Assembly: GCF_000423085.1 (NCBI RefSeq)
Contig: NZ_AUHH01000018.1
Location: 1-64,000 of the forward strand
Direction of reading: 5' to 3'
DNA: 64,000 bases
Origin: Granulicoccus phenolivorans DSM 17626 = NBRC 107789 = JCM 15570
Lineage (GTDB): Bacteria; Actinomycetota; Actinomycetes; Propionibacteriales; Propionibacteriaceae
Shown one piece after another: positions 19,694-39,949 of this stretch (its first letter is position 1; each line of letters begins with the position of its first letter). Made by a program: the position numbers and the translations under genes. The notes below the pieces were generated by a model. The model was not told where the DNA came from, did not search any database, and saw only the letters and a program-made list of their open reading frames with translations.

Positions 19694-19706
19694 ACGCCGG
19701 CCACCG

Positions 19707-20372: not shown

Positions 20373-20379
20373 GCCCGGC

Positions 20380-21153: not shown

Positions 21154-21184
21154 GGGAATCCTCTCGCCCGATCTGCAACCAGAA

Positions 21185-21192
21185 TAGTTGAA
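21185..21192 (-). promoter_or_regulatory. TTCAACTA element in the pirin promoter
   Basis: On the minus strand TTCAACTA reads into TATTCT, a plausible -10, about 25 nt before the pirin ribosome site. The identical 8-mer in the same orientation sits before the FMN reductase gene (54213-54220). It may be a half-site for a shared MarR/HxlR-type redox regulator. Confidence 0.35.
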
Positions 21193-21228
21193 CTCTAAAT
21201 CATTTACCAGACACTGACCCAGGAACGA

Positions 21229-21268
21229 CGACGGGCCCCGCCCTGCCGGCGCGGGGCGGGACCCGTCG
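21229..21268 (-). terminator. Stem-loop after the polysaccharide deacetylase
   Basis: CGACGGGCCCCGCCC (21229-21243) and GGGCGGGACCCGTCG (21254-21268) pair over 15 positions with one mismatch. The stem lies between the deacetylase stop and the pirin promoter, so it probably ends the deacetylase transcript. Confidence 0.6.
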
Positions 21269-21291
21269 AGCGGGCCGAGCCCGGGCGGGGT

Positions 21292-22674: not shown

Positions 22675-22789
22675 GGCTGCCTCCGACGAGGTTGTGGGGT
22701 CAATTCTCTCACTGACAGTCTGGGGCCGCGATCACCCGGCGGACCTGCGACACGCACGGCCTGCCCGCGACCCCGGAGGTGACAATAGC

Positions 22790-22827
22790 GAACGGCTCGC
22801 TCCGACGAAGGTCGGAGCGAGCCGTTC
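22790..22827 (-). terminator. Perfect 17-bp hairpin after the GH114 gene
   Basis: GAACGGCTCGCTCCGAC (22790-22806) and GTCGGAGCGAGCCGTTC (22811-22827) are perfect complements around a GAAG tetraloop. The hairpin begins 10 nt past the GH114 stop on the minus strand. No T-run follows. Confidence 0.75.
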
Positions 22828-22836
22828 AGCGCGGAA

Positions 22837-23736: not shown

Positions 23737-23982
23737 TCAAGCACTGATGCGGCGCCAGCGCACTATCTCCCGCCCATCAATTTGAGGCCATCGGCGTGTT
23801 GCCCAAAGATTCTCCTGAGTCGTGTGCTGTCACGCACGTATCAGAAGGCCCACGAGCCTCCGGCGCCGAGCGGAGCGGGATCGGGCTGAGCCGACCCGCG
23901 GAGAGCTGAGAGAGGCCGGCGGTTACAGTGCGGTGACTGCCCTGTCGCCCAATCTGCCCGACCCAAAACACCAGGAGCGCCC

Positions 23983-25047: not shown

Positions 25048-25073
25048 CCCGCCACGCGAAGGCGTACTGAGCC

Positions 25074-25562
25074 ATGACCCGCGATCCGATCCAGGAGGCG
25101 CACCGGCAGTGGGTGGCCCACGGCTGGACCGACGCCGCCGACGGCATGGCGATGGTGACCTCGGTCGTGCGGGCCCAACAGTTGCTGATGGAGCGCATCG
25201 ATGCGGTACTGCGTCCGCGCGGGCTCACCTTCGCCCGCTACGAAGTACTCCGCCTGCTCTCCTTCACCCGGGCGGGTGCGCTGCCGATGTCGCGCCTGGG
25301 GTCCCTGCTCCAGGTCCACCCGACCAGCGTGACCAGCGCGGTGACCCGACTGGTCACCCAGGGCTATGTCGAGCGGGTCCGCGGCGACGACCGGCGGGTC
25401 GTGCTGGCGGTGCTCACCGATCCCGGCCGGCGCGCGGTCGAAGAAGCCACCCGGGCTCTGAATGCCGATGTCTTCGAGTCTCCCGGCCTGCCCGGCCCGG
25501 CCGTCCGCGACCTGACCGAACGCCTCACCGACCTGCGCACCGGCCTCGGAGACCCACGCTGA
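25074..25562 (+). CDS. MarR family transcriptional regulator
   Basis: A 162-residue winged-helix regulator. The DNA-binding region is GALPMSRLGSLLQVHPTSVTSAVTRLVTQGYVERVRGDDRRVVLAVLTDPGRRAVEEA, with the wing DDRR motif and the DPxG signature. The flanking helices for dimerisation are present. It follows the PRISE reductase and precedes icmF by 64 nt, where a perfect 16-bp palindrome covers the icmF -10 box; MarR dimers typically bind such sites, so control of icmF is a reasonable inference. Confidence 0.88.
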   Translation: MTRDPIQEAHRQWVAHGWTDAADGMAMVTSVVRAQQLLMERIDAVLRPRGLTFARYEVLRLLSFTRAGALPMSRLGSLLQVHPTSVTSAVTRLVTQGYVERVRGDDRRVVLAVLTDPGRRAVEEATRALNADVFESPGLPGPAVRDLTERLTDLRTGLGDPR

Positions 25563-25602
25563 GGACGCCACCTTTCGCCGAGGATCGGCCCTGGTGGGAT
25601 TT

Positions 25603-25626
25603 ACTAGGATGTCCTAGTATTTTCTT
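25603..25626 (+). promoter_or_regulatory. Palindromic operator over the icmF leaderless promoter
   Basis: ACTAGGA-TG-TCCTAGT (25603-25618) is a perfect 7-2-7 inverted repeat. It overlaps TAGTAT (25615-25620), a TAnnnT -10 box located exactly 6 nt before the icmF GTG. There is no Shine-Dalgarno. A repressor bound here would block RNA polymerase. Confidence 0.6.
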
Positions 25627-28600
25627 GTGGCCGATCTGTACACCCCGACGCACCCCATCCGCCTGGTGACCGCATCCAGCCTGTTCGACGGGCACGACGC
25701 CTCGATCAACATCATGCGGCGGATCTTCATGAGCCAGGGCGCGGAGGTGATTCACCTGGGCCACAACCGCTCGGTCCAGGAGGTCGTGGATGCCGCGATC
25801 GAGGAGGACGTGCAGGGGGTGGCGGTGTCCTCCTACCAGGGCGGCCATGTGGAGTACTTCGAGTACCTGGTGCAGCGGTTGCGCGCGGCCGGGGCCGGGC
25901 ACGTCCGGGTGGTCGGCGGGGGCGGCGGAGTGATCGTGCCCGCGGAGATCGCCCGGCTGGCCCGCAGCGGGGTGCGGATCTTCTCCCCCGAGGACGGCCA
26001 GCGGATGGGGCTGGCCGCGATGGTGAACTCCGTGGTCGCCGACTGCGACTTCGACCCGTGGGCGGCCGGGCCGGTCACCGCCGCGCAGGTGCTGTCCGGA
26101 CAGCGGTACGCCGTCGCCCGGGCGATCACCGGGGCCGAGGCAGGCGTCCTCACCGACAGCATGCTGGCCGAGCTGCGGGCCGCGGCCGCGTCCCCCGGCG
26201 GCACTCCCGGGCGGGTTCCGGTGCTCGGGATCACCGGCACCGGCGGGTCGGGCAAGTCGTCGCTGACCGATGAGCTGATCCGCCGGTTCCGGGTCGACCA
26301 GCGCGACCGATTGCGGATCGGCGTCCTCGCGATCGACCCGACCCGGCGCAAGGGCGGCGGGGCCCTGCTCGGCGACCGGATCCGGGCCAACGCGCTCGAC
26401 GGCGACCGGGTCTTCTTCCGCAGCCTGGCCACCCGGGGCGCCCATGAGGTCCCCGACCGGTTGGCCGACGTGGTGACGGTGCTGCAGGCGGCCGGCTACG
26501 ACCTGGTGATCATCGAGACCCCCGGGATCGGCCAGGGCGACGCCGGGATCGTGCCCCTGGTCGACCACTCGCTGTACGTGATGACCCCGGAGTTCGGCGC
26601 CGCTTCGCAACTGGAGAAGATCGACATGCTCGACTTCGCCGACACCGTGGCGATCAACAAGTTCGAGCGCCGCGGGGCCCGGGACGCGCTGCGGGACGTG
26701 GGCCGCCAGTTGGTCCGCAATCGGGAGGCCTTCGGGCAGGGACCCGAGGAGATGCCGGTCTTCGGGACCAGTGCCGCGACGTTCAACGACGACGGGGTCA
26801 CCGCGCTCTACCAGCACCTGCGCGACGAACTCGCCGCGGCGGGGTTGCCGGTCGAGCCGGGGGCGCTGGCACCGGTCACCGTCCGCCACTCCTCCGGGCT
26901 CCGGCCGGTGCTGCCCGCCGAGCGGGTGCGCTACCTCGCCGAGATCGCCGAAACGGTGCGGGGTTACCACGCCGACACCGAGCGCCTGGCCGAGGCCGCC
27001 CGACGGGTGCAGCGACTGTGCAGCGTCCACGACGAGCTCAGTGCCGCCGGCACCGACGCGGCCGCCGTGGCGCACCTGCTCGCCGCCGCCCGGGCCGATC
27101 TGCCCGCGGAGGTGGCCGACCAACTGGCGGCCTGGCCGGAGGTGGTGGCGGCGTACTCCGGCGACGAGCAGGTGGTGCACGTGCGCGATCGGGCGATCCG
27201 GACGACGCTGACCCGGGAGTCGCTCAGCGGCACGAAGATCCCCCGCGTCGCACTCCCCCGGTTCACCGATCACGGCGACCTGGTCTCGTTCTGGCGCCGG
27301 GAGAATCTTCCGGGCCGGTTTCCGTTCACCGCCGGGGTGTTCGCGTTCAAGCGCGACAACGAGGATCCGGCCCGGATGTTCGCCGGCGAGGGCGACCCGG
27401 CGCGCACCAACCGCCGGTTCCGGGTGCTGTCGGAGGGCAGCGCCGCCACCCGGCTCTCCACGGCCTTCGACTCGGTCACCCTCTACGGGCGCGACCCCGA
27501 TGAGCGCCCCGACATCTACGGCAAGGTCGGCACCTCGGGAGTCTCGGTCGCCACGCTGGCCGACATGAAGGTCCTGTACGCCGGGTTCGATCTGGTCGCA
27601 CCGACCACCAGCGTGTCGATGACGATCAACGGTCCCGCGCCCACGGTGCTGGCCTTCTTCCTCAATACCGCGATCGACCAGCAGGTGGACGCCTTCACCG
27701 AGCGGGAGGGTCGCGCCCCCGACGCCGCGGAGCGGGCCCGGCTCACGGCGTACGCCCTGCAGCACGTGCGCGGCACCGTCCAGGCCGACATCCTCAAGGA
27801 GGACCAGGGCCAGAACACCTGCCTGTTCTCCACCGAGTTCAGTCTGCGGATGATGGCCGACATCCAGGAGTGGTTCATCGAGCACGGGGTGCGCAACTTC
27901 TACTCGGTGTCGATCTCGGGCTACCACATCGCCGAGGCCGGGGCGAACCCGATCAGTCAGCTCGCCTTCACCCTGGCCAACGGCTTCACCTATGTGGAGG
28001 CCTATCTCGCGCGCGGGATGGCGATCGACGACTTCGCGCCCAATCTGTCGTTCTTCTTCTCCAACGGGATGGATCCGGAGTACTCGGTGATCGGTCGGGT
28101 GGCCCGCCGGATCTGGGCGGTGACGATGAAGGAGAAGTACGGGGCCGCCGAGCGCAGTCAGAAGCTGAAATACCACGTGCAGACCAGCGGCCGGTCGCTG
28201 CACGCGCAGGAGATGACCTTCAACGACATCCGGACCACCCTGCAGGCGCTGATCGCGATCTACGACAACGCCAACAGCCTGCACACCAACGCCTACGACG
28301 AGGCCGTGACCACTCCGACCGAGGAGTCCGTCCGCCGGGCCCTGGCGATCCAGCTGATCATCAATCGTGAGTGGGGTCTGGCGATGAACGAGAACCCGCT
28401 GCAGGGCTCGTTCATCATCGACGAACTCACCGACCTGGTCGAAGCGGCCGTGCTGGCGGAGTTCGACCGGATCAACGAGCGCGGCGGGGTGCTGGGCGCG
28501 ATGGAGACCGGCTACCAGCGCGGCCGGATCCAGGACGAATCGATGAGGTACGAGCACCGCAAGCACGACGGCTCGCTACCGATCATCGGGGTGAACACCT

Positions 28601-28872
28601 TCCTCGCCCCGCATCCGGAGGAAGCGGAGGCGAAACCGGTCCCGTTGGCCCGGGCCACCGAGGCGGAGAAGGCGTCCCAGTTGCAGCGGGTCCGGGCCTT
28701 CCGGGCCGCCCATGCCGACGCGGCGCCGGCCGCGCTGGCCCGGCTGAAGGAGGCAGCCGTGGGTGGGGAGAATGTCTTCGCCGTGCTGATGGACGCCGCC
28801 CGGGTGTGTTCGCTGCAGCAGATCACCGAGGCGTTCTTCGAGGTGGGTGGTCAGTACCGGCGCAACGTCTGA
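25627..28872 (+). CDS. icmF: Fused isobutyryl-CoA mutase IcmF
   Basis: IcmF interconverts isobutyryl-CoA and n-butyryl-CoA with adenosylcobalamin and carries its own G-protein chaperone. The 1081-residue order is as known for the family. First is a B12 domain (FDGHDASIN with the cobalt-binding His, residues 21-29, and SSYQGGH). Next is a MeaB-like GTPase with Walker A GTGGSGKSSLTDEL near 203-216 and IETPGIGQGDAG and NKFERRG. Then a linker leads to the mutase barrel from about 540 (RRENLPGRFPFTAGVF, and QTSGRSLHAQEMTFNDIRT). It starts with GTG at a leaderless promoter under a palindromic operator. The upstream MarR gene is the likely regulator. Confidence 0.96.
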   Translation: MADLYTPTHPIRLVTASSLFDGHDASINIMRRIFMSQGAEVIHLGHNRSVQEVVDAAIEEDVQGVAVSSYQGGHVEYFEYLVQRLRAAGAGHVRVVGGGGGVIVPAEIARLARSGVRIFSPEDGQRMGLAAMVNSVVADCDFDPWAAGPVTAAQVLSGQRYAVARAITGAEAGVLTDSMLAELRAAAASPGGTPGRVPVLGITGTGGSGKSSLTDELIRRFRVDQRDRLRIGVLAIDPTRRKGGGALLGDRIRANALDGDRVFFRSLATRGAHEVPDRLADVVTVLQAAGYDLVIIETPGIGQGDAGIVPLVDHSLYVMTPEFGAASQLEKIDMLDFADTVAINKFERRGARDALRDVGRQLVRNREAFGQGPEEMPVFGTSAATFNDDGVTALYQHLRDELAAAGLPVEPGALAPVTVRHSSGLRPVLPAERVRYLAEIAETVRGYHADTERLAEAARRVQRLCSVHDELSAAGTDAAAVAHLLAAARADLPAEVADQLAAWPEVVAAYSGDEQVVHVRDRAIRTTLTRESLSGTKIPRVALPRFTDHGDLVSFWRRENLPGRFPFTAGVFAFKRDNEDPARMFAGEGDPARTNRRFRVLSEGSAATRLSTAFDSVTLYGRDPDERPDIYGKVGTSGVSVATLADMKVLYAGFDLVAPTTSVSMTINGPAPTVLAFFLNTAIDQQVDAFTEREGRAPDAAERARLTAYALQHVRGTVQADILKEDQGQNTCLFSTEFSLRMMADIQEWFIEHGVRNFYSVSISGYHIAEAGANPISQLAFTLANGFTYVEAYLARGMAIDDFAPNLSFFFSNGMDPEYSVIGRVARRIWAVTMKEKYGAAERSQKLKYHVQTSGRSLHAQEMTFNDIRTTLQALIAIYDNANSLHTNAYDEAVTTPTEESVRRALAIQLIINREWGLAMNENPLQGSFIIDELTDLVEAAVLAEFDRINERGGVLGAMETGYQRGRIQDESMRYEHRKHDGSLPIIGVNTFLAPHPEEAEAKPVPLARATEAEKASQLQRVRAFRAAHADAAPAALARLKEAAVGGENVFAVLMDAARVCSLQQITEAFFEVGGQYRRNV

Positions 28873-28896
28873 GCCCGGAGACCGGCTGAGCCGGGA

Positions 28897-30108
28897 TCAG
28901 GTTCCGCGCAGACTCTCCGCGAGCCGGGCCGCCAGGTCGCCGCCCCCGACCACCTGCACCCGGTCCAGCCCCAGAAAGCCGGCCAACCGAACCAGTTCAC
29001 CGGCCAGTTCCTCCGCGGTCTCGGCCGGGGCGCACGGTTCGGCATGGGCGGAGCGGACCAGCAGCAGTCCCGCGGCCCGGTCGGCCTTCAGATCGACCCG
29101 GGCAACCAGCCGGTCCCCCAGCAGGAACGGCAACACGTAGTACCCGTGGATGCGCTTGTGGGCCGGGACATAGATCTCGATCCGATAGCGGAAGTCGAAC
29201 AACTGCTCGGTCCGGGTCCGCTCGAAGACCAGCGAGTCGAACGGACTGATCAGGGCCCGGTCCGGCACCCGCCGCGGCAGGCGGGCGTCGCGATGCAGGT
29301 ACGCCGGGCGCTGCCACCCCTCGACGCGCACCGGCAGCAGTTCCCCGTCCTCGACCAATTCCTCGATCGCCTGGGTGGTCGGCGCGGGCGCGGTCCGGAA
29401 GTAGTCCCGCAGAGATTGAGCGGTGGCCACTCCGTGTGCCTGCGCCGCAATCGACACCAGCCCGCGATGGGCGTCGGCCGGGGTCGGCGTCGGCAGCGCC
29501 AGCACCTCGCCGGGCAGGACGCGCTCGGGCAGGTCGTACAGCCGCTCGAACTGTGGCGTACGCCCGGCCACGGTGATCTCGCCGGCATAGAAGAGAAACT
29601 CCAGGGCCTGCTTCACCGCCGACCAGTTCCAGCCCCAGTGCGCGGTCGAGCGTTCGACGTCGGCGTCGATCCCGCGGGCGGTCAGCGGGCCGTGCGCGCG
29701 GACCTCGGCGAGCACCTGGCGCAGCAGGTCCGGCCGCTCCCGGGCCAGCGTGCGGGGCCCCTGCCAGGCATCGAGGTGCGCCCGGGCCATCCGCCAGCGC
29801 AACAGCGGGTGCGTCCGGACCGGGATCAGGGACGCCTCGTGGGCCCAGTACTCAATCAGCCGGCGCGGGGCTCGCCCGGCCGCGCGGTCCAGCAGATCGC
29901 GCGGGTACGGCCCGAGGCGGGAGTACAGCGGAAGGTAGTGCGCCCGGGTCAGCACGTTGACCGAGTCGATCTGGAGCAGCCCGATCCGGCGCAGGACCCG
30001 GGACAAGGCTCGGACGTCGGGCACCCCCGTGGGGCGCGGGTCGAGGAAGCCCTGCGCATCGAGCGCCACCCGTCGGGCCTGGGCCTTCGACAGCAGCTGG
30101 GTGTTCAC
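28897..30108 (-). CDS. Winged-helix DNA glycosylase, YcaQ/AlkX family (DUF1006)
   Basis: A 403-residue protein of the HTH_42 family, whose E. coli member YcaQ unhooks DNA interstrand crosslinks and streptomycete member AZL/AlkZ repairs azinomycin damage. Signature sequences are [28 protein letters not shown] (QxD catalytic motif), [11 protein letters not shown], and the C-terminal [59 protein letters not shown]-type region. Start is GTG 30108 with CACAAT 7 nt upstream, again without a ribosome site. It is convergent with icmF. Confidence 0.85.
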
Positions 30109-30156
30109 CGGACCGATTGTGCCCCTGCCGCCGCGGCGGGCACGACACGTCCGGCG

Positions 30157-30849
30157 CTACGGGATCACCCCGTCCAGGAACTGCAGGACCCGGTCGGCGA
30201 TCCAGGCCCGGTGCTCGCCGGCCACCCGGACCCGGGCCGGGACGCCCAGGGGATGCCCGGCTCCGGTCACCTCGACCACCGTGATCCTCTCACCCGCGTC
30301 GGCCGACGCCACGGCAGCGCGGATCTCGCCGGCCGAGCCGAACGAGTCGCGGTCACCCTGCAACACCAACGTCGGCACCGTCGGGGCGAGCAGTTCGCTC
30401 AGCCGGGAGGACTCCGGTTTGCCCGGCGGGTGCAGCGGGAAGGACAGCGCCAGCACCGCGGCGGCCCCGAGTTCCTGCGCGCAGCGGCAGGCCACCCGGG
30501 CACCGGCCGAGTGCCCACCGACCACCAGCGGCACTCCCCCGAGCCCCGGTTCCGCGGTCAACGCGGGAACCGCCGCCAGCCAGGCAGCGTCCAGGGTCGG
30601 CGGTCGGGTCGCCACCTTCTTGCCGGCCACCTTCCAGGGTTGCTCGAAGCGGGCGACGGTGATTCCCCGGGCGGGCAGCAGCGCCGCCAGCGCCACCAGG
30701 TCGACCCCGTCGAGCCCGCCCCCGGCCCCGTGACCCAGCACCAGCAGTGCCCGTACGCCGCCGTCGGCCGTGGCGGGCGACACGTGCCACCGCCCCGGCC
30801 CCTGCGGGGTGTCGACCTCGCGCACGACCACCTCACCGAGCAGCGTCAC
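30157..30849 (-). CDS. Small alpha/beta hydrolase (KANL3/Tex30-like)
   Basis: A 230-residue serine hydrolase-fold protein of the group often annotated dienelactone hydrolase or Tex30-like. The HGAGGGLDGVDL oxyanion loop, the nucleophile elbow VVGGHSAGAR, the acid in LQGDRDSFG and the His in TGAGHPLG give a complete triad. Start GTG 30849 is in the family-appropriate place, though no ribosome site is visible. Substrate unknown. It lies between the YcaQ-type gene and the LysR regulator, all on the minus strand. Confidence 0.75.
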   Translation of the reverse strand: MTLLGEVVVREVDTPQGPGRWHVSPATADGGVRALLVLGHGAGGGLDGVDLVALAALLPARGITVARFEQPWKVAGKKVATRPPTLDAAWLAAVPALTAEPGLGGVPLVVGGHSAGARVACRCAQELGAAAVLALSFPLHPPGKPESSRLSELLAPTVPTLVLQGDRDSFGSAGEIRAAVASADAGERITVVEVTGAGHPLGVPARVRVAGEHRAWIADRVLQFLDGVIP

Positions 30850-30943
30850 GATGCCGCCACCGGGCCGGGCCGGCGTACCGGGCTGCTGATCGCGTGTTCC
30901 ATGGGACCCATCGTGGCACGGGCCGGACCGGTTCCGGCCGCGG

Positions 30944-31840
30944 TCATACCCGGTCGAGGATCTCGGCGATCAGGGCCCGGGCGGCCGGTGAGGTCGGTGC
31001 GGGGCGCCGGTGCACCAGCGCGACCGGGTGCCGCGCGGCCAGGCCGGTGACCGGCAGCACCGCGACCTGTTGGCGCAACTGGCCGGGCTCGGTGGCCGAG
31101 GTGGGGACCAGCGCGAACCCCATGCCGAGCGCGGCGTACCGGATCTGTTCGTCGGTCGTGGCGACATCGAAGGCCACCTGTCGGCGTACCCCGAGCCGGT
31201 CGAAGGCGGCATCGACATAGTGCCGCAGGCCACTGGCCGCGCGCAGTTCCACCGCGGGCCCGGCCGCGGCGAGTTCGGCCGGAGTCACCGAGGCCCGATC
31301 GGCCAGCGGGTGCCCGCGGTGCACCACCGCCACGAAATCGTGCTCGCTGATCAGGTGGTGGGCGAACTCGCCGGGCACCTCGGCGGCGTACAGACCGACG
31401 ATCCCCACATCGAGTTCCCCGGCCCGCAGCCCGGCGATGATCCCGAAGGAGCCGGGATCATGGATCCGGATCTCCACCGCGGGATGGCGTTCATGGAACG
31501 CTGCGAGTGCCTCGTCCACCCGGGGCGCGGACTGACCGACCACGTTGATCACCCCGACCCGCAGCACCCCGGTCAGCGAACCGCGCAGCGCCACCATTTC
31601 GGCGACGGCCTCATCGACCTCGGCCAGGATCCGCCGAGCCCGCGCCAACAACTGCTCCCCGGCCGGCGTCATCGCGACTCCCCGATTGGACCGCTCCAGC
31701 AGCTGGGTCCGGTGCTCCCGTTCCAACTTGGCCACCTGCGTACTCAGCGCGGACTGGACCACCTGGCACCGCTGCGCGGCCCGCGTAAAACTGCGCTCCT
31801 CGCACACCGCGACGAAGTACCGGAGCTGGGCAATGTCCAC
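30944..31840 (-). CDS. LysR family regulator of the Rieske dioxygenase operon
   Basis: A 298-residue LysR regulator. The N-terminal helix-turn-helix is classic (LRYFVAVCEERSFTRAAQRCQVVQSALSTQVAKLE, then LLERSNRGVAMTPAGE), followed by a two-lobe effector domain (GVLRVGVINVVGQ, DVGIVGLYAAEVPGEF and a C-terminal lobe with ALGMGFALVPTS). It is transcribed away from the ring-hydroxylating dioxygenase genes with a 126-nt AT-richer spacer, the usual arrangement in which the LysR protein activates the divergent operon with an aromatic inducer. Confidence 0.9.
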   Translation of the reverse strand: MDIAQLRYFVAVCEERSFTRAAQRCQVVQSALSTQVAKLEREHRTQLLERSNRGVAMTPAGEQLLARARRILAEVDEAVAEMVALRGSLTGVLRVGVINVVGQSAPRVDEALAAFHERHPAVEIRIHDPGSFGIIAGLRAGELDVGIVGLYAAEVPGEFAHHLISEHDFVAVVHRGHPLADRASVTPAELAAAGPAVELRAASGLRHYVDAAFDRLGVRRQVAFDVATTDEQIRYAALGMGFALVPTSATEPGQLRQQVAVLPVTGLAARHPVALVHRRPAPTSPAARALIAEILDRV

Positions 31841-31966
31841 AATCCCTATTTATCACGAAACCAGATAGCCAGCATCAAAATCGTCTGATGGATAGATAGC
31901 TCATCCTTGCGCATGCTTGATGCATCGCCTCACCGCCGAGGCCCACCGCGAATCGGGAGGAATGCA

Positions 31967-33238
31967 ATGACGCAGATGACCACGCGAGCAGCCGACCGGG
32001 AAGTCAGCTTCCCGCAGGCCGACGGATCCCGGGTGCCCTACCGGGTGTTCAGCTCCCAGGAGGTCTACGACCGGGAACAGGAACGGATCTACCGGGGCCC
32101 GCACTGGTCCTTCGTCGCCCTGGCCGCCGAGATTCCCAACCTGCACGACTTCAAGTCGACCTTCATCGGGGACACCCCGGTCGTGGTGACCCGCACCGAG
32201 GACGGCTTCTCCTGCTGGGTGAACCGGTGTGCCCACCGCGGCGCGATTGTGTGCCGGGAGAAGTTCGGCAACCGGGCCGACCACACCTGCGTGTACCACC
32301 AGTGGAACTACAACGCCAACGGCGCCCTCCAGGGCGTGCCGTTCCGGCGCGGCATCAAGGCCGACGGCAAACGCCTGACCGGCATGGCCAAGGACTTCCA
32401 GCAGGAGAACTTCGGCCTGCGGACGCTGCGGGTGGCCGACTTCCACGGCCTGCTGTTCGCCACGTTTTCCGAGGAGACCCCCGACATCGAGGACTACCTC
32501 GGCCCCGAGATGCAGCCCTGGGTCGAACGGATCGTCAAGGGCCGCGACCTGGAATACCTCGGCTGCACCCGGCAGTACGCCCACTCCAACTGGAAGCTCT
32601 ACTACGAGAACGTCAAGGACCCCTACCACGCCTCCCTGCTGCACCTGTTCCACACCACGTTCAACATCTTCCGGGTCGGCATGAAGGCCCGTTCGATCCC
32701 CGATTCCCGGCACGGCCTGCATTCGATCATCACCGTCACCAAACCCGAGCAGGACGCCGACACCGCCGCGGCGTACCAGAAGCAGTCGATCCGCTCGATG
32801 GACAGCGGCTTCACCCTCGAGGACCCCTATCTGCTGGGCCAGATCTCCGAATTCGACGAGGACACCACCAACCACATCCAGACGATCTTTCCGCAGTTGG
32901 TGATCCAGCAGATCCACAACACCTTGGTCGCCCGGCAGGTCCTGCCCAAGGGCCCCGGCGAGTTCGAGCTCGTCTTCCACTTCTTCGGGTACGCCGACGA
33001 CACCCCCGAACTGCGCGAGCTGCGGCTGCTGCAGGCCAACCTGGTGGGCCCGGCCGGCTACATCTCGATGGAGGACACCGAGGTGACCGAACTGGTCCAG
33101 GACGCCACCGTTCGCGACGGGGACGCCACCTCCTTCCTCGGTATGGCACTGGATGCCCCCGACGAGCAGGACACCAACATCACCGAGAGCCTGATCCGCA
33201 ACTTCTGGGCGGGCTACCAGAAAGTCATGGGGTACTGA
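31967..33238 (+). CDS. Aromatic ring-hydroxylating dioxygenase, Rieske alpha subunit
   Basis: The 423-residue catalytic subunit of a ring-hydroxylating dioxygenase or hydroxylase. The Rieske centre is CAHRGAIVC...CVYHQW (Cys-x-His, 17 residues, Cys-x-x-His) near residues 87-109. The mononuclear iron site is DPYHASLLHLFH (D, H, H pattern), preceded by NWKLYYENVKD. The size and the VPFRRGI stretch after the Rieske loop resemble the benzoate/anthranilate/salicylate group, but the substrate is not assigned. ATG 31967 follows GGGAGG. It is 1 nt from the beta gene. Confidence 0.92.
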   Translation: MTQMTTRAADREVSFPQADGSRVPYRVFSSQEVYDREQERIYRGPHWSFVALAAEIPNLHDFKSTFIGDTPVVVTRTEDGFSCWVNRCAHRGAIVCREKFGNRADHTCVYHQWNYNANGALQGVPFRRGIKADGKRLTGMAKDFQQENFGLRTLRVADFHGLLFATFSEETPDIEDYLGPEMQPWVERIVKGRDLEYLGCTRQYAHSNWKLYYENVKDPYHASLLHLFHTTFNIFRVGMKARSIPDSRHGLHSIITVTKPEQDADTAAAYQKQSIRSMDSGFTLEDPYLLGQISEFDEDTTNHIQTIFPQLVIQQIHNTLVARQVLPKGPGEFELVFHFFGYADDTPELRELRLLQANLVGPAGYISMEDTEVTELVQDATVRDGDATSFLGMALDAPDEQDTNITESLIRNFWAGYQKVMGY

Positions 33239-33239
33239 G

Positions 33240-33752
33240 ATGACCAACACGATGGGAACCACCACCGACGCCCGGCCGACGCCGGACCTGATGCTCTGGC
33301 TGGAGATCTTCGAGACCCAGTCCCGCTACGCCCATGCCATCGACTCCGACGACCTCGAGACCTGGCCGGCCTTCTTCACCGAGGACGCGACGTACACGAT
33401 CGTCTCGCGGGAGAACCACGACCGCGGCCTCCCGGCCCCGATTCTGCACTGCCGCAACCGGGCCATGATGCGGGACCGCGTCGTGGCGCTGCGCAACGCG
33501 AACATCTACGAGGAGCACCGCTACCGCCACAGCACCTCCGGCCCGGTCATTCTCGAGGCCGACGGCGATAGCGTCCGCACCGAAACCAGCTACATCGTGG
33601 TGCGGACCGGCCAGGCCGGGGACGCCGAGGTCTACTCCGCCGGCAGCTACCACGACACGCTGGTCCGGACCGATGCCGGCTGGCGCTACCGGGAACGGAA
33701 GGTCATCTACGACACCTCCCGGGTCCTCACGCTGCTCGCCACCCCGATCTGA
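33240..33752 (+). CDS. Ring-hydroxylating dioxygenase beta subunit
   Basis: A 170-residue small subunit with the NTF2-like fold. SRYAHAIDSDDLETWPAFFTEDATYTIVSRENHDRG and HCRNRAMMRDRV are characteristic, and the C-terminal strand GWRYRERKVIYDTSRV matches the family end. It shapes the alpha3beta3 hexamer and has no cofactor. The ATG follows the alpha stop by 1 nt, so the subunits are translationally coupled. Confidence 0.9.
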   Translation: MTNTMGTTTDARPTPDLMLWLEIFETQSRYAHAIDSDDLETWPAFFTEDATYTIVSRENHDRGLPAPILHCRNRAMMRDRVVALRNANIYEEHRYRHSTSGPVILEADGDSVRTETSYIVVRTGQAGDAEVYSAGSYHDTLVRTDAGWRYRERKVIYDTSRVLTLLATPI

Positions 33753-33760
33753 GCGATGCC

Positions 33761-34093
33761 ATGGCGACCTGGTTCGGCGTGATCCGGCTCGAAGCGCTGA
33801 TCGCCGAGGAACCCATCCCGGTGGAGGCCGGGGACATTCCGATCGTGCTCGTCCGCGTGAACGACACCGTCCATGCGCTCCACGATCGCTGCCCCCACGA
33901 CGGGGTCCCCCTGTCCGAGGGCTTCTTCGAGGGCGGTGGCCTGCTCGAGTGTGTGCTGCACCAGTGCCGGTACGCCCTGGCCACCGGCGGCGCGATCCGA
34001 CCGTCGGGGGTCGGCGTCCGGGCGTACCCGACCCGCATCGTCGGGGGCATGGTGCAGGTCGGGATCACCGGGGGCAATCCGTCCGACACCTGA
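33761..34093 (+). CDS. Rieske-type ferredoxin of the dioxygenase system
   Basis: A 110-residue Rieske [2Fe-2S] ferredoxin that would carry electrons to the alpha subunit. Ligands are CPH in DRCPHDGVPLSEG and CVLH in LLECVLHQCRYAL. An extra Cys (HQC) sits beside the second pair. It follows the beta gene by 8 nt. No ferredoxin reductase gene is in this cluster or window, so a shared reductase must be used. Confidence 0.88.
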   Translation: MATWFGVIRLEALIAEEPIPVEAGDIPIVLVRVNDTVHALHDRCPHDGVPLSEGFFEGGGLLECVLHQCRYALATGGAIRPSGVGVRAYPTRIVGGMVQVGITGGNPSDT

Positions 34094-34121
34094 GGGACCT
34101 ACAGTCGAGGTCACCCCCGTG

Positions 34122-34150
34122 TTGCAACTGATAACCATTCTCAATAGGGT
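34122..34150 (+). promoter_or_regulatory. Zur box inside the promoter of the COG0523 operon
   Basis: TGATAACCATTCTCA (34129-34143) is a 7-1-7 near-palindrome matching the classical Zur operator TGATAATnATTATCA at 12 of 14 defined positions. It lies exactly between TTGCAA (34122-34127) and TAGGGT (34145-34150), a -35/-10 pair with 17-nt spacing. Zinc-bound Zur would repress. The gene content downstream agrees. Confidence 0.75.
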
Positions 34151-34180
34151 GGGGGTCCTGGTTGATCTGAAAGGCCTCCC

Positions 34181-35185
34181 ATGACTGCGACCATCGCCCC
34201 GGACACGCGTGTCCCCGTTACTGTTCTGACCGGTTTCCTCGGATCGGGCAAGACGACGCTGCTCAACCGCATCCTCACCGAGGAGCACGGTCAGCGGATC
34301 GCCGTGATCGAGAACGAGTACGGCGAGGTGGGGATCGACGATGCCCTCGTGTATGACTCCGATGAGGAGATCTTCGAGATGAACAACGGCTGCATCTGCT
34401 GCACCGTGCGCGGAGACCTCATCCGGATCCTCGGCACCCTGATGAAGCGGCCGGACCCGTTCGACCGCATCCTGATCGAGACGACCGGCCTGGCCGACCC
34501 GGCCCCGGTCGCCCAGACGTTCTTCGTCGACGACGAACTGCGCGAGAAGCTCCGCCTGGACGCGATCATCACCATGGTCGACGCTGCGCACGTCCTGGAT
34601 CACCTCACTGAGGTCAAGCCCGACGGGGTCGAGAACGAGGCGGTCGAGCAGGTGGCGTTCGCTGACCGGCTCGTGCTCAACAAGACCGACCTCGTGGACG
34701 AGACCGCGCTCGCCGACGTGGTCGCCGGCCTTCGGAGCATCAACGCGATGGCCGATATCCTTCCCACCCGGTACGCCGAACTCGAGTTGGGGAGCATCCT
34801 GGATGTCGGCGCGTTCGCGCTCGATCGGGTTCTCCAGACCGATCCCACCTTCCTCACCGAGACCGACCACCAGCACGACCTGACCGTCGGCTCGGTCGGG
34901 ATCGAGACCGAGGGCAGTATCGATGTCGGCAAGCTCAACGCATGGCTCGGCAAGCTGCTGCGCGAACGCGGCCAGGACATCTTCCGCTCCAAAGGCATCC
35001 TCAACATCGACGGCCTCGCCAACCAGTACGTCTTCCAGGCCGTCCACATGCTCTTCGACGGCGCCGAGGGACGCCCCTGGGCCGAGGGTGAACCTCGCCT
35101 CAACCGCCTGGTGTTCATCGGGCGCAACCTCGACCGCGACGAACTGATCGCCGAGTTCAACGCCTGCCTGACCGGCGTACGATGA
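34181..35185 (+). CDS. COG0523 GTPase, putative zinc metallochaperone
   Basis: A 334-residue G3E GTPase. Walker [14 protein letters not shown], the metal-binding GCICC motif in [17 protein letters not shown], the switch segment [16 protein letters not shown] and NKTDL are all present, with a C-terminal CobW_C domain ([11 protein letters not shown] to [12 protein letters not shown]). Members of this family behind Zur boxes (ZigA/ZagA type) deliver zinc to client enzymes in starvation. The Zur box just upstream supports that role rather than cobalamin. It shares a 4-nt ATGA overlap with the WD40 gene. Confidence 0.9.
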
Positions 35186-36198
35186 CCGCGCGCGTCTCGA
35201 CCGTCGACGACGTCACTCATCGCGTCGAGGGAGACGTCGCCACCCTCGCCGTACGCGCCGGCGGCTCACCCGCGGTAGCGGTCGGTACCTCCGATGGCAC
35301 CTGCTGGTGGGTGGGGCCGGCGAATCCGGCCGTACGCCGGGCCGCCACGGAGGTGGACGTTCCCACCGGTATCGCCGTCCACCCGCGCCGCGACGAAGTC
35401 ACACTCACCGGACCCCGCGGCTACGCGATCTGGAGACCCGGCAGTGACCCGCACCCGTACCCGGACCAGGGTTGGAGCAGCGCCGCCGCCTACGCCCCGA
35501 GCGGCGCCCTCGCGGTCGCGGCAGGCCGGACCGTGGCCATCCACCCGGACGCCAGCACGGCCGCGCCGTACGTGTCGGCTCCCGCGCCCAGCACGATCAC
35601 CGACGTCGCCTGGACACCGCAGGGCAACCGGGTCGCAGCGAGCGCCTACGGGGGTGTCTACATGTACGACGGCAGGGCACCCGAGCCCGTCCGAACCTAC
35701 CCGTACCTGGGCTCACACCTCGCGGTGGCGGTCAATCCCAACCGGCGCTGGATCTGCAGCGGCAACCAGGACGCCAGCGTCCACATCTGGCGCGCCTCCA
35801 ATGGTGCGGAACTCCAGATGTCCGGCTTCCCGCTGAAGGTGACGCGGCTCGCGTTCGATGACACCGGGCGCTGGATGGCCAACAACGGCGCCCCCGATGT
35901 CGCCGTCTGGGACTTCAGCGGTCAGGGCCCCGGCGGCCGCGGGGCCGAACTGCTTGCCGGACACGACCGCGTGATCGACTTCGACTGGCGCCCCGGACCC
36001 GGAGCAGTGCTCGCCACCGTCGGCTCCGAAGGCAACGTGCAGATATGGACCATGACGAGCACGGTGATCGGTAAGCGGCGCCTACCCGTACGTACCCGTG
36101 AGTTCGCTGATGCGCTCAGCGTCCGCTGGCTCGGCACAGACCGCCTGGTCGTCGCGCGCGCCGGCGGAGTCGTCACCATCATCGACGGGACCTGCTGA
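35182..36198 (+). CDS. WD40-repeat beta-propeller protein in the Zur operon
   Basis: A 338-residue protein with WD40-like blades: [65 protein letters not shown] and [24 protein letters not shown]. About seven blades would fit. No signal peptide or enzymatic motif is seen, so it is probably a cytosolic scaffold. It overlaps the COG0523 gene by 4 nt and the next small gene by 1 nt, so all three should be co-translated under Zur control. A partner role with the zinc GTPase is an inference from this coupling. Confidence 0.85.
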
Positions 36199-36503
36199 TG
36201 GTGCCCGGCCCGCCGACCGGCATCCAGTTGCCCGGTCCGGGCGGTATCGGGCCGGGCCGCGGCTCAGGGGTCAGCCAGACCAGCCGCGTCCGCGCGCTGG
36301 TCGCCGAGCACGTACCCGACGACCTGGTCGTCCTGGTCACCGAACTCGCCTGCTCCGAGCCCGGCTGCCCGCCCGTGGAGACCGTGATCGCCCTCATGTA
36401 CCCCGGCAACCCGCACCAGTTCAAGCTCCCCAAGGCAGTCCGTGAGGTGACCGCCGACGACGTCCGACAGGTACTCACAACGCAGGAAGGACACGAGCAC
36501 TGA
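36198..36503 (+). CDS. Small conserved-looking cysteine protein, third gene of the Zur operon
   Basis: A 101-residue protein that I do not recognise. A proline/glycine-rich N-terminus precedes a folded-looking part: VRALVAEHVPDDLVVLVTELACSEPGCPPVETVIALMYP and a C-terminal helix ending in EGHEH. The CSEPGC pair and the HEH tail could bind a metal. Its ATG shares one base with the WD40 stop codon (TGATG). The tight coupling with a COG0523 GTPase under a Zur box suggests a role in zinc handling or as a client. Confidence 0.7.
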   Translation: MVPGPPTGIQLPGPGGIGPGRGSGVSQTSRVRALVAEHVPDDLVVLVTELACSEPGCPPVETVIALMYPGNPHQFKLPKAVREVTADDVRQVLTTQEGHEH

Positions 36504-36690
36504 CCCCGGCGACTCGGTGGCTCGGGCATCGCTCCGGGACGCGCAGCTCGGGCGACCCGGTAACCATCGACCGGCTCGCGACCGCCACTGCGCTCACCGC
36601 CGACGAAGGGGCGGGCGCGGCTGGCCGCCGGGCAGGACCAAAGCTCTTTCTGATGTGTACCGGATGCGTATCGAGGATCCGGGAAGCAGA

Positions 36691-36725
36691 AATCCCCTGT
36701 CAGAACCATGTTCTGACAGGGGATT
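36691..36725 (-). terminator. Hairpin in the left repeat
   Basis: AATCCCCTGTCAGAAC (36691-36706) and GTTCTGACAGGGGATT (36710-36725) form a perfect 16-bp stem with a CAT loop. It is the duplicate of the tRNA-Glu terminator. With no intact tRNA before it, it has lost its original job but could still stop minus-strand transcription from the cupin gene. Confidence 0.7.
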
Positions 36726-36732
36726 CGACTTG

Positions 36733-36764
36733 TAGCCCCGACGGGATTCGAACCCGCGCTACCG
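36733..36764 (-). pseudogene. 3' fragment of tRNA-Glu
   Basis: The last 32 nt of the tRNA-Glu gene (3' anticodon stem, variable loop, T arm, acceptor 3' strand and discriminator), identical to 39741-39772. The 5' half is absent, so it cannot make a tRNA. Confidence 0.85.
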
Positions 36765-36861
36765 TGAGCGGCGAATCCGGACAGCAACCGCCGCCGGATC
36801 CACGCCGCAGGAGTCAGGGGCGACGCGCTCCACCCGGTTTGCGGGAGACAACCGCGGAGGA

Positions 36862-36889
36862 AGCGGCCGGGGTTGGGTCGCCGGCCGCT
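36862..36889 (-). terminator. Stem-loop after the cupin gene
   Basis: AGCGGCCGG (36862-36870) pairs with CCGGCCGCT (36881-36889) across a 10-nt loop. It lies 20 nt past the cupin stop on the minus strand. Confidence 0.5.
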
Positions 36890-36909
36890 CCATCGTTCGG
36901 ACCGACCTG

Positions 36910-37437
36910 CTAGAAGATCAGATTCTCGTTGACCGGAATCGAGTTCTCTTCACAGTAGTCGAGATACATGTTCAGGAATGAGAAGACGTCCATCGTCTTC
37001 AGGTGACGATCCTGCTCGTCGTAGAGGTCCAACGCGCCCTGCACGAAGAAGAGCGTCTTCATGCCGGTGTCGCTGGTGAGCGTGTGGATCACGCCCGGGT
37101 TCTCCTGGACGAAGTCCCCCTCCTGCGCGAGCCAGTCGTACTCCTCGTAGCGCCAGCTTCCCTCCAGGGTGTACGCCGAGACCGGGCCGCGATGGCGGTG
37201 ACGTCCGATCCCGCCCGGCCCCTTGGACCACAGGATGTTCACATACAGCGAGTTCCGCACGTCGAAGCGGAGCGGCTTGAGGAACACGTCGCCGGACGCC
37301 CCGACCCAGGGGTGGAAGAGAGACTCGTCGGTGCCCATGTAGATGTCCTGCACACCATGTTCCAGGTGCCTCTTCAGGACACGCTTCTCCACATCATCCA
37401 GGATGCTGTCCGGGTTGTCGTACGGGTTCTTGATCAT
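36910..37437 (-). CDS. Cupin protein, 2,4'-dihydroxyacetophenone dioxygenase-like
   Basis: A 175-residue single cupin. The metal site is suggested by GIGRHRHRGPVSAYTLEGSWRYEE (two His and Glu) and a later His in PGVIHTLTS. This layout resembles 2,4'-dihydroxyacetophenone dioxygenase and acetylacetone dioxygenase, which cleave C-C bonds next to carbonyls with a non-haem iron. GGAGG precedes the ATG. It is divergent from the GAF-Fis regulator across 250 nt that contains two small palindromes. Substrate not proven. Confidence 0.7.
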   Translation of the reverse strand: MIKNPYDNPDSILDDVEKRVLKRHLEHGVQDIYMGTDESLFHPWVGASGDVFLKPLRFDVRNSLYVNILWSKGPGGIGRHRHRGPVSAYTLEGSWRYEEYDWLAQEGDFVQENPGVIHTLTSDTGMKTLFFVQGALDLYDEQDRHLKTMDVFSFLNMYLDYCEENSIPVNENLIF

Positions 37438-37440
37438 TGA

Positions 37441-37475
37441 AACCTCCGAGGTTCATTGTTTGCCGACGTTGGCAA
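37441..37475. promoter_or_regulatory. Palindromes upstream of the cupin gene
   Basis: AACCTC-C-GAGGTT (37441-37453) overlaps the cupin ribosome site. TTGCC-GACGTT-GGCAA (37460-37475) lies just upstream. Either may bind the divergent regulator encoded at 37688. Confidence 0.35.
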
Positions 37476-37687
37476 TGCGGGTCCACTGGGCCGCGGCGAC
37501 TGGGCGTTCTGCCCGACGCCGTGGCGTGGTTATCCTCGCCGCAGGCAGACCCGATTCCGGGGGCTCAGGAGCTTCTTGTTCACAAGTTGAACATCTTCGG
37601 TCTCCCCTCTGGTCTGTGGTCCTGCCGCGCGAATAAAATCCTTGGGTTCCGGAATTTTTGACCGAGTGATCACACCGAGGGGGTTCC

Positions 37688-38767
37688 GTGCCATCCATTG
37701 ACCGCGCCGGCCTCGCCCGGCCAGCCAGGCCCGACATCATCAGGTCCTGGGGTCGATCCCGATTGAATGGGGTGGACTCGACCCGCCTCGAGATCGACCG
37801 GACCGAAGCCGATGTGGACTCCAGTTTCGTCACGGCAGCAGCTCCGGTCCTTCTGTCGGTAACGGATATGCTGGCGGGCACCTCGACGTCACTCGCCCTC
37901 GCCGACCCCTCCGGGGTGGTGAGCTGGCGGTGGCAATCGGATTCGTCGATCACCGCGTTGCTCGATCGTTCGGAGTTCGAACTCGGATCACACTTCGCGG
38001 AACCCTGTGCGGGCACGAACGGCATCGGACTGGCAATCGCAAGCCGACGCCCCGTGCGGGTCATCGGGGCCGAGCACTACAAGCAGATGTGGGACGTCTG
38101 GGCCTGCTTCGCGGCGCCGGTGGCGGACCCGATCACCGGCCAGATGGCCGGCCTGGTGAACATCACCTGCCGGGCCGAGTCTGCCAACCACTTCCTTGCG
38201 GTCGCGCTGCGATCCCTCACCGATCGCATCGGCGTTGCCCTGCGCGATGCCGCAGCCCCGCGACAGCACCGGCTGTTGGAAGCTTGTCTCCGGTTCCGCG
38301 CATCCACCAGGCGGGCGGTGGTCGCCCTGGACCGGACGTTGCTGCTGGCCGACGACAGAGCAGCGTCCTTTCACCTTGATCGGGCCCAGGTGTGGTCGGC
38401 GATCGTCGAAGCCGGCCCGTACGCCCGCATGGTCACCCTCCCCGGAGGACTCACCGCCGAGCTCTATCCGGTGGCGCCTCGATCCCTCTCCCACGGGGTA
38501 GTACTGGTGCTGGGACCGAACACTGGTTCCCGAACCCTGCCGGACTCGGGCGGGGCGGGCTCAGGCGGGGCGCGCTCGAGCGGGGCGGGCTCGCCCCAGA
38601 GCGTCCCGACGCGAATGCCGAGCACGCCGTTGCAGCAGGCCGAGGCGGACATCATCCGGCAGGTGCTCGTTGAATGCGGCGGGAACAAGTCCGAGGCCGC
38701 GGAGCGACTCGGTATCTCGCGGGGAACGCTGTACCAGCGGCTGCGGCGCTATGGCATCGCCGGATGA
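37688..38767 (+). CDS. GAF-domain regulator with Fis-type helix-turn-helix (AcoR-like, no AAA+ domain)
   Basis: A 359-residue regulator. The N-terminal GAF-like part has GSHFAEPCAGTNGIGLAIASRRPVRVIGAEHYKQMWDVWACFAAPV, the hallmark of AcoR-type sensors. A Gly/Ser-rich linker (about residues 285-310) leads to a C-terminal Fis helix-turn-helix, ADIIRQVLVECGGNKSEAAERLGISRGTLYQRLRRYGI. The sigma54-interacting AAA+ domain of AcoR/NtrC is missing, as is common in actinobacteria. GTG 37688 follows GAGGGGG. Its likely targets are the divergent cupin gene and the SDR downstream. Confidence 0.82.
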   Translation: MPSIDRAGLARPARPDIIRSWGRSRLNGVDSTRLEIDRTEADVDSSFVTAAAPVLLSVTDMLAGTSTSLALADPSGVVSWRWQSDSSITALLDRSEFELGSHFAEPCAGTNGIGLAIASRRPVRVIGAEHYKQMWDVWACFAAPVADPITGQMAGLVNITCRAESANHFLAVALRSLTDRIGVALRDAAAPRQHRLLEACLRFRASTRRAVVALDRTLLLADDRAASFHLDRAQVWSAIVEAGPYARMVTLPGGLTAELYPVAPRSLSHGVVLVLGPNTGSRTLPDSGGAGSGGARSSGAGSPQSVPTRMPSTPLQQAEADIIRQVLVECGGNKSEAAERLGISRGTLYQRLRRYGIAG

Positions 38768-38874
38768 TCGGTGTTCAAGTCCTGCACAATCGGCTCCCGG
38801 GGCGACAATCCGGTGACGTTTCGAACTAGGTTCGCGGATACCAACGCAGGTCAGTGAGATCGAGGAGGATCTTC

Positions 38875-39609
38875 GTGTCGACTTTTTCCCAAGAACTTTT
38901 TGCTGGCAAGACCGCGATCGTCACCGGTGGTACGTCCGGGCTCGGAGCTGGATCGGCCCAGTACCTCGCCGAGCTCGGGGCCACCGTCTACGCCGTCGGC
39001 CTCGGTTCGGACAAGGTGACCTTTCCCGAGCATCTGGACATCCGCGTGCGCGAGGTCGACGTGACCAACGATGAGCACCTGATGTCGTTGTACTCGGAGC
39101 TGGACTCCCTGGACATCCTCATGCCTGCCGCTGGCATCAGCATGGGGGATCGCGAGCTGGAGTGGGAACCCTTCAACAAGGTGTTGGCCATTCAGCTCAA
39201 CGGTGTCTATCGCACGATCCAGTTGGCGCATCCCCTTCTCGCCGCGCACGGCGGGTCCATCGTGATGGTTGCCTCGATGTACTCGTTCTTCGGAGGCGGC
39301 AAGCGCGCCGCGTATTCAGCAGCCAAGGGCGGGATCACGCAGTTGACCAAGTCTCTGGCCGAGGCGTACGCCCCCGACCACATCCGCGTCAACGCCATCG
39401 CGCCCGGATGGATCGACACCCCGTTGCTGGCGCCGCTCAAGGCTGATCAGGCGCTCAGTGACCGGATCCTCTCGCGCACCCCGTTGGGACGCTACGGCAC
39501 CCCGGAGGAAATCGGTAAGGTCACCGCATTCCTCGCCTCCGACGCTGCATCCTTCATCACCGGAGTCGTCCTCCCCGTCGACGGTGGCTATCTCGTCACA
39601 GGAATCTGA
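38875..39609 (+). CDS. Short-chain dehydrogenase/reductase of the islet
   Basis: A 244-residue classical SDR. The cofactor motif is VTGGTSGLGAGSAQYLAELG (TGxxxGxG) and the catalytic motif YSAAKGG with the Ser in MVASMYSFFGG upstream. The usual NNAG structural motif is replaced by PAAG (LMPAAGIS). The C-terminus has the NAIAPGWIDTPLL and DGGYLVTGI patterns. GTG 38875 is preferred because GAGGAGG is 6 nt upstream; the open frame reaches 38854. It probably oxidises an alcohol or reduces a ketone in the same pathway as the cupin dioxygenase. Confidence 0.88.
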   Translation: MSTFSQELFAGKTAIVTGGTSGLGAGSAQYLAELGATVYAVGLGSDKVTFPEHLDIRVREVDVTNDEHLMSLYSELDSLDILMPAAGISMGDRELEWEPFNKVLAIQLNGVYRTIQLAHPLLAAHGGSIVMVASMYSFFGGGKRAAYSAAKGGITQLTKSLAEAYAPDHIRVNAIAPGWIDTPLLAPLKADQALSDRILSRTPLGRYGTPEEIGKVTAFLASDAASFITGVVLPVDGGYLVTGI

Positions 39610-39679
39610 GCCTGCAGCCACCTGCACCTCGGGCCGTCTGGCCAGGACAGAGCCCTGCTGATGGGTACCAGATGCGTAC

Positions 39680-39772
39680 CGAGGATCCGGGAAGCAGAAA
39701 TCCCCTGTCAGAACCATGTTCTGACAGGGGAATCGACTTGTAGCCCCGACGGGATTCGAACCCGCGCTACCG
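39680..39772 (-). repeat. Right direct repeat (within intact tRNA-Glu)
   Basis: 93 bp matching 36672-36764 with one difference (A for T next to the hairpin). This copy includes the 3' 32 nt of the complete tRNA-Glu gene and its terminator. Confidence 0.85.
39701..39731 (-). terminator. Terminator of the tRNA-Gln/tRNA-Glu unit
   Basis: TCCCCTGTCAGAAC (39701-39714) and GTTCTGACAGGGGA (39718-39731) form a 14-bp perfect stem with a CAT loop. On the minus strand it is followed by TTTCTGCTT. It starts 9 nt past the tRNA-Glu 3' end. Confidence 0.8.
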
Positions 39773-39813
39773 CCGTGAGAGGGCGGCGTGCTAGGCCGCT
39801 ACACAACGGGGCC
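39741..39813 (-). tRNA. tRNA-Glu (anticodon CUC)
   Basis: A 73-nt cloverleaf on the minus strand. The acceptor GGCCCCG pairs with CGGGGCT (G-U at the end), with discriminator A. The D stem is GUGU/GCAC, the anticodon stem CCGCC/GGCGG with loop CUCUCAC, and the T arm has GGGUUCGAAUCCC. The anticodon is at 39777-39779. No CCA is encoded. Its 3' end is duplicated 3 kb away. Confidence 0.95.
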
Positions 39814-39877
39814 CTAGCCCGAAGAACATATCAGCACAGTCAGCTGACTGCAAATCCTGCGCTGATGCTCTTCCGCG

Positions 39878-39949
39878 CAGGGGTACCAGGACTCGAACCT
39901 AGACTAACTGAACCAGAATCAGTCGGGCTGCCAATTACCCCATACCCCT
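39878..39949 (-). tRNA. tRNA-Gln (anticodon CUG)
   Basis: A 72-nt cloverleaf on the minus strand. Acceptor AGGGGUA pairs with UACCCCU, discriminator G. The anticodon loop is UUCUGGU between ACUGA and UCAGU, anticodon at 39914-39916, and the T arm has GGUUCGAGUCC. It lies 64 nt upstream of tRNA-Glu in the same transcription direction. It is the substrate of the GlnRS encoded at 18 kb. Confidence 0.95.

Follow-up and report, generated by a model that had tools for sequence, protein, structure and literature searches.

Integrative elements that resemble the locus studied here have been described in several bacteria. In the Islander description, a tDNA island is the interval from a tRNA gene to its displaced 3' fragment, and an integrase gene is required (PMC4383910). 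In Streptococcus thermophilus, cis-mobilizable elements (CIMEs) have kept both attachment sites, attL and attR, have lost the genes for integration and transfer, and occur in tandem by accretion (PMC5704250). In Dehalococcoides, tandem islands are located at a single RNA gene, ssrA, with a fragment of the 3' end of this gene at their boundaries; 15 of these islands have no integration module and carry genes for reductive dehalogenases and other proteins (PMC3146451). In the cluster K mycobacteriophages, the phage attachment site, attP, consists of a core, a putative terminator and then arm sites that include pairs of 11-bp arm-type repeats (PMC3203893). Here we describe a 3-kb islet at a tRNA-Glu gene of Granulicoccus phenolivorans DSM 17626, which is located in the first 64,000 nucleotides of contig NZ_AUHH01000018.1 (hereafter the window). 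The islet is probably an integrase-less, att-bounded cargo element of the CIME-like kind, inserted by a tyrosine integrase that targets tRNA-Glu and that was either lost or supplied in trans.

The islet is bounded by two direct repeat copies on the reverse strand, the left one at positions 36650-36764 and the right one at positions 39658-39772, which are identical at 111 of 115 positions (97%, four mismatches) when aligned without gaps. The initial annotation had noted a repeat of 93 bases (36672-36764 and 39680-39772) with 92 identities, a count that we could reproduce within the longer repeat. It had also described the repeat as the last 32 nt of tRNA-Glu plus its terminator; the terminator is included, and the shared part of the tRNA amounts to 33 nt (39740-39772), followed by 82 nt past the tRNA end. 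A gapped alignment of the copies gave a weaker extension of about 35 nt leftward and of a few nucleotides deeper into the tRNA past a 3-nt gap, so that the core, with 33 exact nucleotides in the 3' half of the tRNA, reaches the anticodon loop across this gap. The intact tRNA-Glu (CTC), the putative integration target, was identified by ARAGORN and Rfam at 39740-39813 on the reverse strand, at the right end of the islet and with its 3' end facing it, as had been stated previously. By the integration model, the 3' part of this intact gene would come from the islet side. A search of the window with a 22-nt pattern for the tRNA 3' end gave two matches, one of them in the tRNA itself, against 0.00 expected from shuffled sequences, and no third tRNA-Glu fragment. 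The G+C content of the islet is 0.647, as compared to 0.69-0.71 in four other stretches of the window.

A recombination between tRNA loci had been put forward at the outset as an alternative source of the repeat. The only other tRNA-Glu found in the genome (TTC, on contig C38) can be aligned with the repeat for no more than 35 nt, at 89% identity, and contains neither the terminator nor the arm part. For this reason we rejected a recombination between the two tRNA-Glu loci of the genome, which we regard as highly improbable.

Following the tRNA end, both copies contain a hairpin and then two 10-bp repeats separated by one 11-bp step, so that each copy read in tRNA orientation consists of the 3' part of tRNA-Glu (CTC), a terminator hairpin and a repeat pair. 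The terminator-like hairpins, which were recognized as palindromes by reading, are located at 39702-39730 in the gap between core and arm sites of the right copy, and at 36694-36722 in the left copy. We examined the periodicity independently of any motif by scoring, for the 118 nt that follow each core, the best repeat with 11-bp spacing against 500 shuffles. The pair in the right copy, GGTACGCATCTGGTACCCATC (39660-39680, reverse strand), scored 9/10, a value reached by 1 of 500 shuffles, and the pair in the left copy, GATACGCATCCGGTACACATC (36652-36672, reverse strand), scored 8/10, a value reached by 8 of 500. With up to two mismatches the motif was found nowhere else in the genome than in the two repeats, and with up to three mismatches 0.02 occurrences were expected in the window. 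We infer that these motifs are arm-type sites of a tyrosine-integrase attP, in which case the right copy would hold the core, the terminator and the P' arm of the islet, and the left copy a displaced core, a terminator and a second P' arm. That the repeat extends beyond a typical core and includes the terminator had initially been a reason for caution; the order of core, terminator and arm-type sites agrees with the attP anatomy described for the cluster K phages (PMC3203893).

A slightly widened form of the motif was present in 8 of 198 genomes of the family Propionibacteriaceae, the source genome included. The seven other genomes carry it at eight places, at four of which (loci L177, L178, L180 and L181) an integrase was identified in the fetched locus at E <1e-20 and at one of which (L182) the match was borderline (2e-4), with none in the remaining three. 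At L180 (genome G041, contig C224), a similar arm motif, GGTACGCATTTGGTACGCATC, is located next to tRNA-Glu (TTC), and the locus also contains an integrase frame; the same arm type is thus seen at the other tRNA-Glu. The periodicity was strong (at most 3 of 500 shuffles) at the tRNA copies of the family genomes G016, G027, G040, G084, G137, G148, G163 and G168, and also at inner copies in G040, G057 and G163. The last copies in other arrays were weak (at least 68 of 500 shuffles) in 9 of 11 cases (G016, G027, G057, G073, G084, G137, G151, G163 C112 and G168 C38); those seen to abut a chromosomal neighbour are only the ones in G027 (IclR) and G084 (glnS). Twelve empty sites were given, of which eight had their tRNAs scored, and seven of these were not significant (at least 123 of 500), the remaining one, G028, reaching 8/10 (35 of 500), a raw score equal to that of our left copy. 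Since the last copies are weak in nine of the 11 other arrays and the left copy here has the 11-bp motif, we suggest with moderate confidence that the left copy represents an arm belonging to another, eroded element rather than the chromosomal end of the islet. On the same grounds, we rejected the simpler idea that the left copy is just the ancestral tRNA 3' end.

No genes other than those for a cupin, a Fis-type regulator and a short-chain dehydrogenase/reductase (SDR) were called inside the islet, and no genes for integration or transfer, in agreement with the initial annotation. A search with a hidden Markov model (HMM) built from the tyrosine integrases of this analysis, which would miss serine recombinases, identified no integrase in the islet or in the 20 kb beyond, and a Pfam search of the whole genome with PF00589 gave eight matches, all on other contigs and none on the contig of the islet. 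Beside the two repeats, no integrase remnant longer than the last codons was recovered. A possible remnant of this kind is a frame through the left P' arm that reads RTKALSDVY, as compared to RVSALADVY at the end of an integrase encoded in G084, which may suggest the tail of a lost gene.

In G084, tRNA-Glu (CTC) is immediately followed by an integrase gene whose 3' end contains a close variant of the arm motif, and the two ends of what appears to be one element are found on two contigs. The P-side flank of the islet, GTCCGGATTCGCC (36770-36782, reverse strand), adjoins the core and matches the G084 element over 12 nt at the same position; 3 of 20,000 random 40-mers from the window scored as high as the shared sequence adjoining the core, TCCGGATTCGCC. 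The G084 integrase is 32-39% identical to the phage records in 15 of the rows listed, with two further records at 60-80%. These observations bear on another origin of the islet, by which incoming DNA with a tRNA-Glu 3' region from a related strain was taken up by homologous recombination, with no integrase involved. The length of the repeat and its 97% identity would fit such an event, as would the resemblance of the terminator sequence to the one beside IclR in G027, but the arm-like 11-bp repeats in both copies, the match of the P-side flank to the G084 element and the position of the repeat start in other elements of the family, which is in the anticodon loop, all speak against it, and we consider homologous recombination an unlikely explanation.

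We also compared the surroundings of tRNA-Glu in related genomes. The genus comprises one genome, that of the source, and the comparison was therefore made at the family level, with loci downstream of tRNA-Glu picked by hand from among the matches listed in a search of 97 family genomes, rather than from all of these genomes; 77 loci, including that of the source, could be oriented. In the oriented loci, tRNA-Glu has tRNA-Gln (CTG) as its neighbour, as it does here (39877-39949, reverse strand, ARAGORN). A gene for an IclR protein (at least 55% identity) was located less than 300 bp from tRNA-Glu in 22 of the 77 loci, at 300-2600 bp in 15 and further away in 19; it was not found in the fetched stretch in 21 loci, several of these stretches being short. 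In G070 (genus g14), tRNA-Glu is followed by glnS, a mannosyltransferase gene and IclR, with a gap of 490 bp between the tRNA and glnS, and in G013 and G055 of the same genus 2.3 and 5.6 kb intervene. In the source genome, the distance from the tRNA is 20.0 kb to glnS and 23.2 kb to IclR, so that, compared to those relatives, both the islet and the 17 kb separating it from glnS are additional. The empty junction anticipated by the initial annotation does occur in relatives, with IclR or glnS (G070) instead of the expected COG0523 gene as the neighbour of the tRNA, for which reason the COG0523 block looks accessory too. Four genomes of genus g22 (G021, G043, G060 and G075) have a pair of complete tRNA-Glu (CTC) genes at a distance of 253-880 bp.

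Fragments of the tRNA-Glu 3' part that begin at the anticodon loop were found downstream of the gene in several relatives, in intervals with and without an integrase. At least 14 intervals between two copies on one contig were identified in ten genomes, and 8 of the 14 contain no integrase among the matches listed: our islet, the intervals in G027, G040 (2.15 kb), G057 (8.2 kb), G163 C78 and G168 C38, and two in G073. Among the same matches, an integrase is present in G016, G040 (37 kb), G057 (72 kb), G137, G151 and G163 C112, where the match in G151 is weak (41.6 bits) and the integrase in G163 C112 is truncated. Of the genomes with integrase-less intervals, the PF00589 search covered the source genome, G027, G040 and G073, for which it agrees with the HMM, and the counts for G057, G163 and G168 come from the HMM. 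The large intervals in G057 (72 kb), G137 (155 kb) and G151 (50 kb) were read at their ends only and may each hold several elements. The count leaves out the four g22 genomes with two whole tRNA-Glu copies, a third G151 match in a non-tRNA context, the matches to tRNA-Glu (TTC) in G005 and G158, two places in G186, of which the fetched one is a whole tRNA, G045, and cases where the partner copy is on another contig (G058, G084, G148, G150 and parts of G163 and G168).

The cargo of the integrase-less intervals is diverse. In G027 it consists of a type I restriction-modification system and a DUF3644 protein, and in G073 of a TIR protein in one interval and an FG-GAP protein with a GNAT-domain protein in the other. 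The 2.15-kb interval in G040 (L059-L060), 36.85-39.0 kb after tRNA-Glu, has only AbiEi and AbiEii called; it adjoins the 37-kb integrase-bearing element, and all three copies contain the 11-bp-spaced repeats. The 9.3-kb intervals in G163 C78 (L222) and G168 C38 (L224) each encode a single giant protein rich in repeats; the two proteins share 74% identity over 2278 aa and are, by reading, putatively of a surface type. In G057 the cargo includes bacterial Ig-like domains and transposase-like open reading frames (ORFs), similar to ORFs in G040 that were named by reading.

These intervals also bear on a scenario of plain decay, in which a complete integrase-bearing element was inserted and its genes for the integrase and for transfer then disappeared at the site, leaving an islet that is now fixed. 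Of an integrase, at most what may be the last codons is left here, and the truncated integrase in the 4.2-kb att-bounded interval of G163 represents an intermediate of the expected kind; set against this, no other part of an integrase gene is left, yet the two copies are still identical at 111 of 115 positions, and intervals without an integrase were found repeatedly in the family. We give plain decay a little less than an even chance. It overlaps with the explanation by a CIME-like cargo element, and the sequence does not separate integrase loss before insertion from loss after it.

For the CIME-like cargo element, the following course of events can be proposed. A tyrosine integrase would have joined a circle bearing attP, composed of the core, the terminator and the 11-bp-spaced arm sites, to the anticodon-loop and 3' part of tRNA-Glu (CTC). 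The 3' part and terminator carried by the circle would have restored the tRNA, while the 3' part that preceded it, in turn the arm of an older element, would have been displaced to become the left copy; the islet would thus probably have entered, by accretion, beside an older element whose attP arm is that copy. The integrase gene may have been lost after insertion, the repeat perhaps keeping its last codons, or may have acted in trans from the start. The islet may still be mobile. The initial idea of a minimal, decayed or trans-moved element that targets a tRNA gains support from the empty junctions, from a cupin and a regulator that are not general features of the family and from the similar intervals in relatives. 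A broader and rather speculative extension is that tRNA-Glu (CTC) serves the family as a docking site for cargo-only cassettes, that is, small sets of genes with attachment sites and without an integrase, that would be moved in trans by any resident tRNA-Glu integrase.

Several observations weigh against the proposed origin of the islet. There is no empty site from the same genus. The assembled genome contains no integrase gene with the arm sites of the islet, hence no helper was identified. The resemblance of the RTKALSDVY frame to the G084 integrase is not significant by itself (tblastn, E 5.5). On the P side of the islet, a search for arm-type repeats gave none (163 of 500 shuffles scored as well). 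The longer form of the motif occurs in 4 of 391 genomes of the order, that is, the source and only three others, and the narrower exact form in no viral contig searched. The periodicity is strong in 2 of the 11 last copies (G040, 0 of 500; G163 C78, 8 of 500), after which additional elements may be present, and weak, despite the simple rule, in three G073 copies, the G151 tRNA copy, G058, three G168 copies and one G148 copy. Finally, the Erythrobacter match of the cupin (70% identity) stems from a scan that reaches only close relatives and that returned two further matches, in Bacillus (46%) and Solirubrobacterales (41%).

The cupin gene (36910-37437, reverse strand) encodes a Cupin_7 protein that by family and structure matches resembles 2,4'-dihydroxyacetophenone dioxygenase (PDB 5bpx, E 6e-18), and no homolog was found in 390 other genomes of the order at E 1e-25. 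The regulator (37688-38767, forward strand) has a DhaR-like N-terminal region and a Fis-type helix-turn-helix, with no AAA+ domain listed in the domain scan, and its best-scoring match outside the source genome was only 33% identical among the 97 family genomes. The SDR (38854-39609, forward strand) was recognized by its domain and by a match to the structure 4avy (E 4e-71). Apparently, at least one of the three genes is foreign. In the Erythrobacter locus, an SDR with 56% identity is located 1.2 kb from the cupin, with a LuxR-type regulator in between, and in the Solirubrobacterales locus the cupin is beside an SDR with 32% identity; the Bacillus locus has no SDR match, and its adjoining regulator was read as being of the sigma-54/Fis type. 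Since the pairing recurs in two of the three matched loci, the cupin and the SDR most likely form a small oxidation pathway, and the cargo as a whole may represent an oxidative module for catabolism that is controlled by the regulator encoded within it.

The stretch from the left repeat to glnS (19694-36649) is a candidate for the second, eroded accessory element; a tRNA fragment was not found at the far end of this stretch. At E 1e-30, the WD40 protein that adjoins the left repeat was found in three genomes of the family, the source included, out of 197. Also located in this stretch, at 31907-34093, are Rieske dioxygenase genes close to those of anthranilate 1,2-dioxygenase (AndAc/AndAd/AndAb), followed by the gene for the COG0523 GTPase, and at 25627-28872 an ORF of 1081 aa that by sequence reading resembles a fused isobutyryl-CoA mutase (IcmF, putative).

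The locus illustrates that catabolic genes, one of which has its best relative found in the distant Erythrobacter, can reside at a tRNA gene in the absence of any visible mobility gene, and att-bounded islets of this integrase-less kind are frequent at tRNA-Glu in the family (8 of 14 intervals among the matches listed). If the docking-site reading were true, genes for defence, surface and catabolic functions would be exchanged as cassettes and not as autonomous islands. With the exceptions given above, the 11-bp arm repeats may serve as a sequence test that distinguishes the arm of an accreted element from the chromosomal end of a tRNA-bounded island.

Compared to the systems outlined at the beginning, the islet resembles the CIMEs in that it keeps, by sequence, attL and attR without integration or transfer genes; it differs in its size of only 3 kb, its three genes, its probably eroded partner, its other host group and its location at tRNA-Glu. 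As to accretion, there is a P' arm-like motif in the left copy, and neither an intact neighbouring element nor a third core was found. The likeness is at the level of sequence; functionally, a CIME is defined by its mobilization in cis. Like the Dehalococcoides ssrA islands, the islet has no integration module and is bounded by the 3' fragment of an RNA gene, but those islands involve serine recombinases and a 20-bp ssrA repeat, whereas tyrosine integrases are found at the site studied here and the repeat includes a terminator and arm-like sites. The islet shares with the attP of the cluster K phages the core, the terminator between core and arm sites and the repeat pairs of the 11-bp type; the phages differ in that they encode an integrase of their own and in that arm sites flank the core on either side, as opposed to the P' side only. 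As in the islands delimited by Islander, an intact tRNA is located at one end and a displaced 3' fragment in the right orientation at the other, but the interval holds no integrase by either PF00589 or our own HMM, so that it would be filtered out, and a method that demands an integrase in this way would miss islets of the kind described here (PMC4383910).

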